NCBI GenBank assembly: GCA_002238825.1
Contig: MPNC01000002.1
Span: 549,180 to 613,179, forward strand
Direction of reading: 5' to 3'
From: SAR202 cluster bacterium bin87
Lineage (GTDB): Bacteria > Chloroflexota > Dehalococcoidia > Lucifugimonadales > UBA3495
DNA: 64,000 bases
Made by a program: the position numbers and the translations under genes. Below the pieces are notes generated by a model. It was not told where the DNA came from. It was given only the letters and a program-made list of their open reading frames with translations, and ran no database searches. Shown piece by piece: positions 32,401-37,382 of the stretch. Numbering within the stretch: position 1 is the first letter of the stretch; every line of letters begins with the position of its first letter.

Positions 32401-34104
32401 CTAGGCGTGATCGGTGTCGGGCCGCACGCGCAGGAACAACGCGGCGACGAAGGATAGCGCCACGGCGACCCATAGCAAGGTGAACACGTCGCTCAGCGCT
32501 TCCGTCAGGGCCAGGTTGAGCGAGTTCAGCAAGCTTTCCGCCACCGCAACGTCTCCACCGCCCATCTCGGCTAGCCTTTCCTTCAACGCCTGGGCGGTGG
32601 CGGGGTCCAATAGCGCCCGGGGGTCTTGCTTCACCGAATCAAGCAGCCCGTCCGGAAGGGCGGCTCTGACATCGTCGGGAACCGTGGCATCGGTTTGGGA
32701 ACGGAAGCCCAGCACCATCACTGGGCCCGTCACGGCCAGACCCACCATGCCGCCCAGAGAGCGGCAGAATTGCAGCGCCGCCGTCGCAACACCGACGTTC
32801 CGGAACGGAACTGCGTTCTGCACCGCCACCGAGAGAACGGCCACGACGCCGCCGAACCCGAGCGCCGTGATTATGAGATAAATCTGGCTGAAGAGAATGG
32901 ATCTGCTCCGGGCGAGGCTTTCACCATCGCCCATGGTGGAAAACAGGTACATACCCAACGCCATCAGCGCGGTACTTACCAGCAACTGCACCCTGTAATG
33001 GCTCCCGGCCCGGGAGAGCAGCTGGCCGGCCAGAATCGCTCCCACCACCATCCCCAACAGCATTGGCGCCAGCATCGTGCCGGCCTGGGTCACGGAAACT
33101 CCCAGCGCTACCTGGAAGTACAGCGGCAGAAAGAGCACGAAACCCTGCAGGCTCACGCTGGTCATCAGAGTCACGATCATGGCGACGGCGACCGCGGGGC
33201 TTCGGTAGATATCCAGGGGCATGATCGGCGATCCGGACCTGAACTCAATCACCACGAAGAGCGCCGCCATCGCCAATCCGAAAGCCAGCAAACCGATACT
33301 CTGTGGAGCATCCCAGGCATGCAGGACGCCGGCGGACGACAGGGCCAACGCCAGCGGGACCACGGCCAACACCAGCGCCACCATGCCGGGGTAATCCAAC
33401 CCCCGCTGCTGCGGGAGCGAATTCGGCCTCGGATAAATCCGCACCGTCAGCGCCAGCGTCGGCACGCCGGCCGCCGCGATGAACAGGAACACCCAGTGCC
33501 AGGACAGCCACTCGGCGACGAACGCGCCCATGACTGGCCCGACCACGGTCGCCACCGCGTATATGGCGCCCAGGATGCCGATGAACTTGCCCCGGTCTTC
33601 AGGTCTAAACAGGTCGGCGATGGAAACGTAACTGCAGGTCATCACGATGCCCCCGCCGATGCCCTGCACCAGACGGAAGCCGATGACCTGGTTCATGGAC
33701 GCGCTGACTCCCACCAACGCCGAGCCGACGATGAACGTCGCGATACCCGCGATGAGGAACATCCGGCGACCGTAGATGTCGCTGAGCCGGCCCACTATGG
33801 GGTATGCCACCGTGGCTGCTACCAAATACGACGTAGCCGGCCAGGCGTAACGGTCGAACCCGCCCAGGTCGGCGACGATAGGGGCCATGATGCTGGCGAC
33901 CACGGTCTGGCTGAGGGCGGCGAGGAACATCGCCAGCCCAACGCACGCCAGCGACAGCCTGACCTGACGGGGCGGCGGCGGCGCGAAGTCTGCCGCCGAG
34001 CCTTGGTCGGCATTCCCCGCCGGCGCTGCGTCGGCGGCAGAAGATTCGTCCACCGCGGCTTGGCGGTCCCGGTCGCCGTCGGCGCGGCCACCGTCGCCGT
34101 TCAT
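32401..34104 (-). CDS. MFS multidrug exporter, DHA2 (14-helix) family
   Basis: A 567-residue proton-coupled antiporter. The start at 34104 overlaps the kinase stop (ATGA). After a ~45-residue acidic N-terminal tail come the family motifs: ASIMAPIVADLGGFDRYAW (motif D1-like), GRLSDIYGRRMFLIAG (motif A), GIGGGIVMTCSYVSIADL, and the export-specific motif C GAIYAVATVVGPVMGAF. About 14 hydrophobic segments can be counted. Drug or metabolite export is inferred from the family and from the upstream kinase and P450 genes. Confidence 0.9.
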   Translation of the reverse strand: MNGDGGRADGDRDRQAAVDESSAADAAPAGNADQGSAADFAPPPPRQVRLSLACVGLAMFLAALSQTVVASIMAPIVADLGGFDRYAWPATSYLVAATVAYPIVGRLSDIYGRRMFLIAGIATFIVGSALVGVSASMNQVIGFRLVQGIGGGIVMTCSYVSIADLFRPEDRGKFIGILGAIYAVATVVGPVMGAFVAEWLSWHWVFLFIAAAGVPTLALTVRIYPRPNSLPQQRGLDYPGMVALVLAVVPLALALSSAGVLHAWDAPQSIGLLAFGLAMAALFVVIEFRSGSPIMPLDIYRSPAVAVAMIVTLMTSVSLQGFVLFLPLYFQVALGVSVTQAGTMLAPMLLGMVVGAILAGQLLSRAGSHYRVQLLVSTALMALGMYLFSTMGDGESLARSRSILFSQIYLIITALGFGGVVAVLSVAVQNAVPFRNVGVATAALQFCRSLGGMVGLAVTGPVMVLGFRSQTDATVPDDVRAALPDGLLDSVKQDPRALLDPATAQALKERLAEMGGGDVAVAESLLNSLNLALTEALSDVFTLLWVAVALSFVAALFLRVRPDTDHA

Positions 34105-35315
34105 GCGGCGCGCTTCCGGCGCGGCATCAGGCGAAGGGCCAGCCGGTATGGCGGATAGGCGCACCGCGACAGCGTCGAAAAGCCCCATCCGTGCGCCAGA
34201 AACGGCTCGCGAGGAGGGATGAACTCCCACGAGTCCAAATCGGTGATGGCGGTCAGCGCCCGACTCAGCAGTTCCCGCGTCTGGCTCACCAGCTGAGGAT
34301 CGCTCATGTCCAGCGCGCCGCAGCCGATGACCATGGGCATGAGGGTGCCCAGCATGTTCTGCCGATAGCTGCGCCAACAGTCCTCGCGGGTGTAGTTCCG
34401 CGCGCCCGAACGACACACGATATCGCGGTACTCGTCCAGGGCGTCGCGCTGGATGCCGCGGCGGACGTCGCTGGTGACGCTGGTTGCGAAAAAGAAGGCG
34501 ACGTCGTACATCCCGCACCCGATGCCGAAACCCTGCCAGTCGATCAAGGCAGGGTCGTCCTGTCCTTCGCCGCCGAACAGCATATTGTCGGCCCGAAAGT
34601 CGCCGTGCACGACGGTCTTCGGGCCTTCCGCAAGGGCGGAGAAATGCGCGGCTACTCGAAACCCGAACTCCCGAGCAAATCGGCGCATTTCGTCAGTGAA
34701 CAGATCACCGAAGCGGTCAAGCGCCGCCGGCAGGGTCAGCAGATAGACCGTCTGCATGATGCGGCTTTCCCTGGTGGTGAGAAAATCGCCGCAAGCGGAC
34801 AGGACTGGCTCATCGGCAACCTCCCAGAAGCGTCCGTGCAGCCCGGCGAGGTGTTGTATGGCGTGACGTGCCCGCACACCGTCCAAGCCAACGCTCTGCG
34901 GTATCCCCTGCATGTGGCCCAGGTCTTCCAGCACCAGGACGAAGCGGTTGCTGTCCGCATCGTAGTCGCCGTAGAACAATTTGGGCGCCCGCACGTAGCC
35001 ATGCGGCGCGATGTCCCGGTAGAACACGTGCTCCCGCCGGTGCAGCGACAACCACCTGCTGAACCGAAAGGCCATGGGATCGGAACTGGGCAGCTTGACG
35101 ATGACTGAAGCGGGATCGGCTGGCTGGCCGTCCCCGCCGATGAGCCGACAGCGATAGAGATTGCCCAGCGCGTTGGTGACGTCGGACAGTTGCTGGACGT
35201 CGACGGCGGTGATCTCCCGTGCATCGGACGACTGGCCGGCGGCCAGCGCCTGCCGCATCCATTCCACGGTGATCCCTCCGGAATCCGTGATCAATGGAAT
35301 GCGTTGCGTGTCCAT
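34101..35315 (-). CDS. APH/ecdysteroid-kinase-like phosphotransferase
   Basis: A 404-residue small-molecule kinase fold. The Brenner-type catalytic loop is HGDFRADNMLF (catalytic Asp in HGD) and the metal-binding Asp is in LIDWQGFGIGCGMYDVAFF. The N-lobe has SVIVKLPSSDP (Lys) and FVLVLEDLGHM (hinge). The long form and the DWQ/YDVAF motif match the ecdysteroid-kinase/CHK-like branch of the APH superfamily rather than classical aminoglycoside kinases. It is 51 bases downstream of the P450 gene and overlaps the exporter by four bases. Target unknown; a hydroxylated product of the P450 is an attractive guess. Confidence 0.85.
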   Translation of the reverse strand: MDTQRIPLITDSGGITVEWMRQALAAGQSSDAREITAVDVQQLSDVTNALGNLYRCRLIGGDGQPADPASVIVKLPSSDPMAFRFSRWLSLHRREHVFYRDIAPHGYVRAPKLFYGDYDADSNRFVLVLEDLGHMQGIPQSVGLDGVRARHAIQHLAGLHGRFWEVADEPVLSACGDFLTTRESRIMQTVYLLTLPAALDRFGDLFTDEMRRFAREFGFRVAAHFSALAEGPKTVVHGDFRADNMLFGGEGQDDPALIDWQGFGIGCGMYDVAFFFATSVTSDVRRGIQRDALDEYRDIVCRSGARNYTREDCWRSYRQNMLGTLMPMVIGCGALDMSDPQLVSQTRELLSRALTAITDLDSWEFIPPREPFLAHGWGFSTLSRCAYPPYRLALRLMPRRKRAA

Positions 35316-35366: not shown

Positions 35367-37382
35367 TCAGCGGGTCCGGCGACGCACCAGGCGCATGCGG
35401 ACCGAGTCATCGGGGTGGGCCGCCGGCGAGCGCTTGATCTTCAGCGGGCGGTCCGGCCGTTCCAGCTCCAGGTCGGCCTCGCGGACGATGGTTGCCAGGG
35501 TGAGGATGATCTGCAATTCCGCCAGGCTGCTGCCGATGCAGCGGTGCCGGTCGACGCCGAAGGGGGCAAATGCTCCGGGTTGCAGGTGCTCCGATCGGTC
35601 TCTCGAATAGCGCTCGATGTCGAAGCGGTCGGGCTCCGGGAAGTATTCCGGCAGGTGGTGACCCACCGTGGTGCCCAGCATCACCTGGGCGCCGGCCGGT
35701 ACCCGGTATCCCTCAAATTCGAACGAGTTGGACACGGTGCGCGTGAGGGCCGGAATAACTGGATACATCCGCATCGTCTCCAGGGCGACCCGGCGCGTAA
35801 CATCCAGCTTGCGCAACCCTTCCGGAGTCGGCGGCCCGTCCTCATACATCTCTTCCACCTCCGCTCGCATCCGCTCCAGTATCTCGGGATGTTTGAGGAG
35901 AGCGTAGAGCATGAACGCACAAACGCTGGCGGATGTGTCCATCCCCACCAGATAGGGAGCGAGAACGTTCGCAAACAGGTCCGTCTCCGGCAGGAACTGG
36001 GGATCCGTCTGGCTCGCTTCCAGAAGCTCATCAACAAAGTCCAGCGGTTCGTCCGGGCCCCTTTCCCGCTGATGGGTCTCCATGATCCGTTGGTAAAGCT
36101 CCGTGACCCGTCGCTTGGCACGGCGGAACCTGGGCAAGCGCTCCATCGCCTTGGGCAGACGCTTCGTGGTGTTCACCTGGATTACTATCGCCAGGAAGTA
36201 GATCAGGTCCTCGATGTACTCTTCGGATGACAGGCCACTGCAGAACATGCCGATCTGTTCGGTGATGATCTGTTGCATGACGTGCTGAATCCCGATGGGC
36301 TGACCCGGTGGCCACTCGTCGATTGCGCGCCGGGTGATATCGTGGACGAGGTCGAGATTGGACTCCAGCGTCCTGGGGGAATATCCCTTCACCAACAGGC
36401 GGCGCATGCGCAGATGCTCCGGTCCGTCCATGGACAGGAGGACGCGGTGGGCGCCCAGCGCGGCGCTGAACTCGTGGTAGGGTTCCCAGGACCGGAAGTG
36501 CGTGGGCGAGATCTGGGTCGCGAAGACGTTGGCTTCAGGACCAACGAGTGCGACCCATTTGTGATGCAGTGCCCGCACCCTGAAAATCGGCCCGTGCTGC
36601 CGGTATTCCCGCAACAGGAAGGCTCTGAGATCTCCCGCCATGCCGAAAACGTTGCCCAGCAGCGGTAACCCGTCCGCCTGGGGAATCTGATCGGTGGGGC
36701 GTGCGGCCGGTGGCGCCGGTGGAGGCACGGCCTCCACCTCCCGTATGGCCGCCGCAACCTCCCGGCCAATGAGGTCCATCCGGCCGATAAGGTCGATTCT
36801 TCCCTGGACCTGGGCCAGTTCGTCCTGAGAGAGGATGCTCTCGAATACTCCGCAGGCCGCAGCGAGGCTTATGATGACAATGTCCCGGGGGTCCGGGATA
36901 TCGTCACTGAAAAGGGTCCGCATGATGCGGAGTTGCACTTCCTCCGTGATAGTACCGTCCGGGGTCGTGTACCTGCGGATACGGGAAACACCGGGGGAAA
37001 GATAGACCTGACCACCGGTGTCGCCTTCCAGGTAACCCCGCTCGATCAAGCGCGTGAGGGCCCTCTCGCGGATCTGGTCGCTCTGCCCGGCCAGATGAGT
37101 GATCCAAAAGGCGGCGTCGCGGGGATTATCGCCAGATTGCGCGATTTCCGCGAGGATGGGGTCGAGCAGTTCGTTTCCCAACGGTGAGGGGTCGGTGACG
37201 ATGAGTTGGTCAACGTTGGTATCGATGCGGTTTTCCAGCGCCAGGTCCATCAACACTGCGCCGGCAAAGGCAACGGCGCGGGAATGCAGAGGGAACCGGT
37301 GGCGAATCTCCCCGTTATCGGTGTCGAGGATCAGCAGCAGTATCTCTTCAACCGCTCGCAGTTCTTCGGTTACTTGCAACAT
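35367..37382 (-). CDS. GPP34-domain / cytochrome P450 fusion protein
   Basis: A 671-residue protein. Residues about 1-215 match the GPP34 (Golgi phosphoprotein 3/Vps74-like) pattern: AVEEILLLILDTDNGEI, AGAVLMDLALENRI, RERALTRLIERGYL, PDPRDIVIISLAAACGVF. Residues about 230-671 are a complete P450: I-helix LVGMDTSASV, K-helix ETMR, and the heme loop FGVDRHRCIG with Cys615 as ligand. Eukaryotic GPP34 binds PI4P at membranes; bacterial GPP34 function is unclear. The fusion could tether the oxygenase to membrane or to a polyketide/lipid substrate. No redox partner (ferredoxin) is adjacent. First gene of the P450-kinase-exporter run. Confidence 0.88.
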   Translation of the reverse strand: MLQVTEELRAVEEILLLILDTDNGEIRHRFPLHSRAVAFAGAVLMDLALENRIDTNVDQLIVTDPSPLGNELLDPILAEIAQSGDNPRDAAFWITHLAGQSDQIRERALTRLIERGYLEGDTGGQVYLSPGVSRIRRYTTPDGTITEEVQLRIMRTLFSDDIPDPRDIVIISLAAACGVFESILSQDELAQVQGRIDLIGRMDLIGREVAAAIREVEAVPPPAPPAARPTDQIPQADGLPLLGNVFGMAGDLRAFLLREYRQHGPIFRVRALHHKWVALVGPEANVFATQISPTHFRSWEPYHEFSAALGAHRVLLSMDGPEHLRMRRLLVKGYSPRTLESNLDLVHDITRRAIDEWPPGQPIGIQHVMQQIITEQIGMFCSGLSSEEYIEDLIYFLAIVIQVNTTKRLPKAMERLPRFRRAKRRVTELYQRIMETHQRERGPDEPLDFVDELLEASQTDPQFLPETDLFANVLAPYLVGMDTSASVCAFMLYALLKHPEILERMRAEVEEMYEDGPPTPEGLRKLDVTRRVALETMRMYPVIPALTRTVSNSFEFEGYRVPAGAQVMLGTTVGHHLPEYFPEPDRFDIERYSRDRSEHLQPGAFAPFGVDRHRCIGSSLAELQIILTLATIVREADLELERPDRPLKIKRSPAAHPDDSVRMRLVRRRTR

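Follow-up and report, generated by a model that had tools for sequence, protein, structure and literature searches.

A gene in the window, the 64,000-nucleotide stretch of DNA analysed here, encodes a GPP34 (GOLPH3/Vps74-like) domain joined to a complete cytochrome P450. With moderate confidence, the product is best explained as a membrane-docked, lipid-modifying monooxygenase. The gene lies on the minus strand at 35367..37382 with the stop included (coding span 37382-35370) and is read as one open frame of 671 aa, M...TR*; the plus strand at the same coordinates is interrupted by stops. The initial annotation had located the gene correctly and overlooked its reading direction.

Exactly two domains, GPP34 and p450, were found in the window protein by Pfam profile search, both far above the cut-offs, which bears out the earlier proposal of a GPP34 domain and a complete P450 in one protein. 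PF05719 matches the N-terminal part at residues 12-216 (36735..37349, minus strand; E 1.2e-31) with 110.8 bits against the curated cut-off of 29.1, covering profile positions 3-201 of 201. PF00067 matches residues 236-651 (35430..36677, minus strand; E 1.1e-59) with 202.8 bits against a cut-off of 22.8. Between the two, residues 217-235 (36678..36734, minus strand) form a Pro/Ala-rich linker, VPPPAPPAARP..., which sits where eukaryotic P450s carry an anchor or hinge. Among the aligned homologues from independent assemblies, 28/28 match both families.

A frame artefact had been named as a concern, and the probability that two genes were joined by an assembly or frame error is practically nil. 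A few homologues are indeed interrupted by a stop codon or a shift of frame (L087, L095, and L097), the only hint of such an error. The joined architecture, however, is kept in 65 loci and recurs in tens of independent assemblies, and selection acts in frame through both halves. Compared with a homologue from the same genus (L020; 90% amino-acid identity), dS is ~0.6 and dN ~0.05 in the GPP34 half and the P450 half alike, with dN/dS of ~0.07 and ~0.10, respectively. Both halves are under purifying selection, and the artefact reading is refuted. AlphaFold2 prediction for 28 fused homologues yielded a mean pLDDT of 83.4 and a pTM of 0.72.

Distribution was examined using 99 relatives, 400 genomes of the window's phylum (Chloroflexota), and named genomes. 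GPP34 and p450 lie within one open frame in the 65 fetched loci, the named ones being spread across seven phyla, so that the fusion is not rare as had been supposed. The 30 named loci of the window type (group A) belong to Acidobacteriota (10), Gemmatimonadota (6), Chloroflexota (5), Latescibacterota (4), Binatota (2), Pseudomonadota (2), and Deinococcota (1), counting the three split loci and one cut by a contig end (L088). In group B (L016, L017, L018, L032, and others), the P450 part is 37-40% identical to that of the window. Group C is ~30% identical, and V-Y replaces the I-helix acid/Thr. In members such as L022:1459-3483 and L027:1456-3483, the Cys and ExxR are kept while V-Y and a YLGD stretch occupy the acid/Thr site. 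As the oxygen-activating pair is missing, group C proteins may not be ordinary monooxygenases. The jk18x bins, whose origin is stated in the text of their report, come from Ircinia sponges (PMC9531527). The fusion carriers appear to be mostly sponge-derived; this is checked against published text for the jk18x bins, and many others bear genome names in the style of sponge projects, which may indicate the same source.

Incidentally, the window genome holds a second fusion gene, of group B (L061, contig C64, 1394-4793), disrupted by a transposase-bearing insertion element with inverted ends CAGGGTGTTGAAA and CTAG flanks. Stand-alone GPP34 proteins of ~225 aa, 48-54% identical to the window domain (L107, L108, L111-L128, L130-L138, and L140-L160), occur in Chloroflexota, Gemmatimonadota, Latescibacterota, Pseudomonadota, and Actinomycetota.

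In the P450 tree, 36/36 fused rows fall in one clade (100/99), with one unfused protein, L071, nested within it. In the GPP34 tree, a single branch separates fused from stand-alone rows (88/70). These sequence trees fit a single fusion event for either half, followed by one or more losses of GPP34. Several independent fusions were first suspected because the window GPP34 is closer to the stand-alone proteins (46-54% identity) than to the group-B and group-C domains, but this was rejected as both trees keep the fused rows together. A split form consisting of a stand-alone GPP34 and a separate P450 was also rejected, as no homologous P450 was found beside the stand-alone loci. Phyla are intermixed in the fused clade, Truepera grouping with Caldilineaceae and Gemmatimonadota with Latescibacterota, Binatota, and Pseudomonadota, which indicates horizontal spread. 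The closest unfused P450s all come from the window's phylum, the only one from which unfused P450s were sampled.

A single fusion event would also suit a GPP34 domain that was attached once and has since been carried as baggage with no effect on the P450. Unfused P450s at L071:7297-8715 and L072:3032-4450 lie inside the fused clade, and this lineage seems to retain only a stub of the domain. By eye, the N-terminus of L071, MSRVSSIGQSVTRAVRK, is similar to the final GPP34 helix in fused relatives, SRLEMISRSVTDGIRN, as though a piece of a lost domain had stayed behind. On the other hand, the GPP34 half is selected as strongly as the P450 half, and almost every member in the seven phyla retains the domain, making baggage very improbable.

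The predicted GPP34 domain (pLDDT 84.3) superposes on GOLPH3 (9qpq_B) with Z 19.4 and an rmsd of 2.8 over 195 aligned residues and on Vps74 with Z 18.0, against Z 3.7 for the best unrelated fold. The bacterial domain thus shares the fold of GOLPH3 and Vps74 (PF05719), a family of peripheral adaptors that place enzymes at the membrane, at only ~24% identity. In GOLPH3, the PI4P ligands are W81, R90, R171, and R174 (PMC13408441). In the alignment, the window protein has P31 for W81, A40 for R90, and D/Q for R171, with R174 alone kept as R105. With 20 K/R vs 37 D/E, the domain has a net acidic composition. Because three of the four ligands are replaced, PI4P-dependent targeting in its literal form is rejected and the phosphoinositide link drawn in the initial annotation is unsupported, leaving membership in the GPP34 family unaffected. 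The bilayer-entering element of GOLPH3 is a hydrophobic beta-hairpin at 190-201. A putative counterpart is a hairpin predicted at residues 118-128 of the window protein with V-Y-L at its tip, the tip being FF in group B, FW in group C, and FLW in stand-alone GPP34.

Every P450 landmark previously claimed is present in the alignment: the haem-ligand Cys615 within FGVDRHRCIG (35538..35540), the ExxR motif E535-T-M-R538 (35769..35780), and the I-helix acid/alcohol pair D482-T483 (35934..35939), all on the minus strand. Judged by sequence and predicted fold, the catalytic core is intact and competent. By fold, the closest structures are the sterol and retinoid enzymes CYP51, CYP46A1, and CYP120A1 (Z ~36-38). 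CYP102, at Z ~36, is effectively tied with them, so that closeness to CYP51 cannot fix the substrate. Membership in CYP51 was rejected by identity, which is 23-25% to bacterial and 18-21% to eukaryotic CYP51 chains where ~40% is needed, and by motif, as the window has VGMDTSA in place of the GxHTS I-helix signature. HT at that I-helix position is found only in the Acidobacteriota rows of the alignment. Pfam detects no ferredoxin or flavin reductase domain in the window protein or in 28/28 homologues, so this is not a self-sufficient P450, and no redox partner gene adjoins the fusion.

The neighbouring genes provide the strongest functional clue. In the window, a gene for an EcKL/APH-type kinase (404 aa; 34101..35315, minus strand; PF01636 E 1.3e-14, PF02958 EcKL E 1.6e-13) starts 51 nt downstream of the fusion, followed by one for an MFS exporter (MFS_1, TRI12-like; 32401..34188, minus strand; PF07690 E 5.9e-49; start codon uncertain). 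Orthologues of the kinase and of the MFS protein (54-55% identical) adjoin the fusion in L082 (Caldilineaceae) and L083 (Truepera), although the fusion comes last there and first in the window (fusion, EcKL, MFS).

Neighbours elsewhere were surveyed using homology clusters and tblastn, with flanks that vary in length by locus and many loci that are closely related. A hydroxyl-conjugating enzyme is adjacent in 24/31 group-A loci (13 sulfotransferase, 8 acyltransferase-3, and 3 EcKL), and an acyltransferase is adjacent in 6/7 group-B loci. Beside stand-alone GPP34, none of the neighbour families of this survey, those of the Acidobacteriota and group-C loci included, was found (0/53 loci). The Gemmatimonadota genome SB0661_bin_36 has three fusions, each with its own conjugating partner: a sulfotransferase, an acyltransferase, and an ankyrin-bearing acyltransferase plus a sulfotransferase. 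At L104:8085-9692, an acyltransferase-3 with ankyrin repeats in mid-protein lies between a fusion gene and a sulfotransferase. The Acidobacteriota cassette includes a squalene-hopene cyclase (SHC) with DCDDTAE, located upstream in Holophagales and L139 and downstream in L103, so that one gene set appears in two orders, SHC-fusion-sulfotransferase (Holophagales) and fusion-SHC-sulfotransferase (L103). Near group-C fusions, a KshA-like Rieske oxygenase and an MMPL/Patched-type transporter are found in 4/5 loci.

Kinase, sulfotransferase, and acyltransferase all use a hydroxyl, the product of the P450, and they interchange beside the fusion. Together with GPP34 in the anchor position, these neighbours make hydroxylation and then conjugation of a membrane-dissolved substrate the best-supported model. 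No transmembrane segment is evident in the fusion protein; the top 19-residue hydropathy is 1.84, within a GPP34 core helix. Three observations agree with the earlier suggestion that the domain may bring the P450 to the membrane or to a lipid-like substrate: the missing transmembrane anchor, a P450 fold closest to sterol types, and neighbours that include a triterpene cyclase, a sulfotransferase, the EcKL kinase, and a membrane acyltransferase.

We propose that GPP34 plays, in cis, the part that GOLPH3 plays in trans toward Golgi enzymes. Sitting on the inner membrane face, it would substitute for the absent transmembrane anchor, and the docked P450 channel would take a hydrophobic, probably polycyclic-isoprenoid, substrate out of the bilayer. 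The P450 would then add a hydroxyl using the electrons of a separate partner. In the window, the EcKL kinase would phosphorylate the new hydroxyl and the MFS protein would export the product, while in other lineages a sulfotransferase or membrane acyltransferase would perform the conjugation step. In Acidobacteriota, the dedicated cyclase would provide the skeleton; outside them, hopanoid of the cell itself or a host lipid may serve as substrate.

GPP34 could instead serve as an oligomerisation or protein-docking module that joins the P450 to its redox partner or to the next enzyme of the pathway. GOLPH3/Vps74 binds proteins, enzyme tails and COPI among them (PMC13408441, PMC12494035); most of the PI4P ligands are missing here, and a redox partner that is not encoded next door needs recruiting. 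Protein docking is nevertheless distinctly unlikely, because the neighbours imply membrane-lipid substrates and the P450 has no other anchor.

The main rival to the membrane-docked, lipid-modifying enzyme is a detoxification cassette, in which the P450 hydroxylates lipophilic toxins of the sponge or its symbionts, the neighbouring enzyme attaches phosphate, sulfate, or an acyl group, and export follows through the MFS protein, GPP34 merely holding the enzyme where hydrophobic toxins partition. The P450, EcKL, and drug-exporter-type MFS protein of the window follow a phase I/II/III logic; this cassette occurs in three lineages, the family is patchy across phyla, and a triterpene cyclase is missing from most carriers. 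The dedicated cyclase of the Acidobacteriota cassette, however, argues for biosynthesis, as does the presence of acyltransferase-3 enzymes, which usually build rather than clear molecules. Overall, detoxification is a possible but somewhat unlikely account.

If the substrate is a lipid, it could be self-made in some carriers. The window genome has an SHC (Pfam) in what reads as a hopanoid operon, with HpnA/C/D/E/G/H-like neighbours, so that a hopanoid substrate is possible there, and the three surveyed Acidobacteriota genomes with the cyclase cassette have 2 or 3 SHCs each. Across named group-A fusion genomes, an SHC or OSC is present in 7/23, no more commonly than in control genomes with stand-alone GPP34 (8/23). 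A self-made triterpenoid therefore cannot be the general substrate, and the candidacy of hopanoid as a universal one is weakened. In the Chloroflexota sample, a cyclase is present in 19/25 fusion genomes vs ~48/375 others, a comparison confounded by the dominance of one family. These counts make a host sterol, another isoprenoid, and lipophilic toxins live alternatives.

For the obscure bacterial GPP34 family, a search of the open-access literature yielded experimental work from only one group, on SCO4440 of Streptomyces coelicolor, a GOLPH3-like protein that affects the formation of wall-deficient cells (PMC12402492). SCO4440 is likewise a bacterial GPP34 protein, but it stands alone, beside a D-Ala-D-Ala carboxypeptidase and with no P450 (PMC12402492). 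Whereas GOLPH3 and Vps74 serve many enzymes in trans, through their tails, the fused GPP34 would act in cis on one.

Among P450 fusions, the CYP51-ferredoxin of Methylococcus capsulatus (7jj1, 7snm, and 6mcw) is also bacterial and is the closest P450 structure (E 1.6e-37 by sequence, Z 37.9 by fold). Its substrate is a sterol and its partner a redox ferredoxin, in contrast to the N-terminal membrane adaptor of the window fusion, and the two P450s differ in the identity and I-helix signature described above. Self-sufficient fusions of the CYP102A1 (P450 BM3) type also have a P450 within a multidomain polypeptide, but the window fusion has no reductase domain and its accessory domain carries no electrons. 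Microsomal class-II P450s (CYP3A and CYP46A1) have a similar fold and are held at the membrane with hydrophobic substrates, as the fusion protein may be; they use an N-terminal transmembrane helix, whereas the proposed anchor here is a folded peripheral domain. In Ircinia symbionts, steroid clusters of ERG24-CYP51-LSS are horizontally shared among about ten phyla (PMC9531527). They too place isoprenoid-modifying P450 genes in sponge symbionts, and their phyla overlap those of the fusion, but the P450s are annotated as CYP51 and lie beside lanosterol synthase and ERG24 in a different order (PMC9531527). No ERG24 occurs among the identified neighbours of the fusion, and GPP34 is unmentioned in that report.

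Both domains are already known, and their joint architecture with its neighbours was not found described: a search of the open-access literature, outside which fall most subscription papers and the domain-architecture databases, returned no account of the GPP34-P450 architecture, its single origin, its spread, or its conjugating neighbours. Known P450 fusions mostly pair the oxygenase with an electron supply. The novelty here is a P450 joined to a membrane-adaptor fold instead, which gives bacterial GPP34 proteins a concrete, testable function. If the docking is true, the enzyme-placing principle of GOLPH3 in the Golgi is displayed in cis, in bacteria. The family also signals a module for lipid or toxin modification that is passed horizontally, chiefly among sponge symbionts, and whose conjugating enzymes are interchangeable.

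A bolder reading, in which the fusion is a 'Rosetta stone' for all bacterial GPP34 proteins, makes a joint claim, to which we attach a rather low probability: that the ancestral, pre-Golgi job of the GOLPH3 fold was to hold enzymes that modify lipids and the envelope at the inner face of the membrane, and that sponge symbionts of many phyla exchange a modular lipid-decorating system of GPP34-P450 plus an interchangeable phospho-, sulfo-, or acyltransferase. If so, previously unseen conjugated polycyclic lipids would be expected, perhaps mimicking or altering host sterols.

Elsewhere in the window genome (L178, contig C32:66000-77000), a cluster encodes a P450, a sulfotransferase, an MFS-like protein, an APS kinase, and another P450. 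It follows a hydroxylate-sulfate-export logic with no GPP34.
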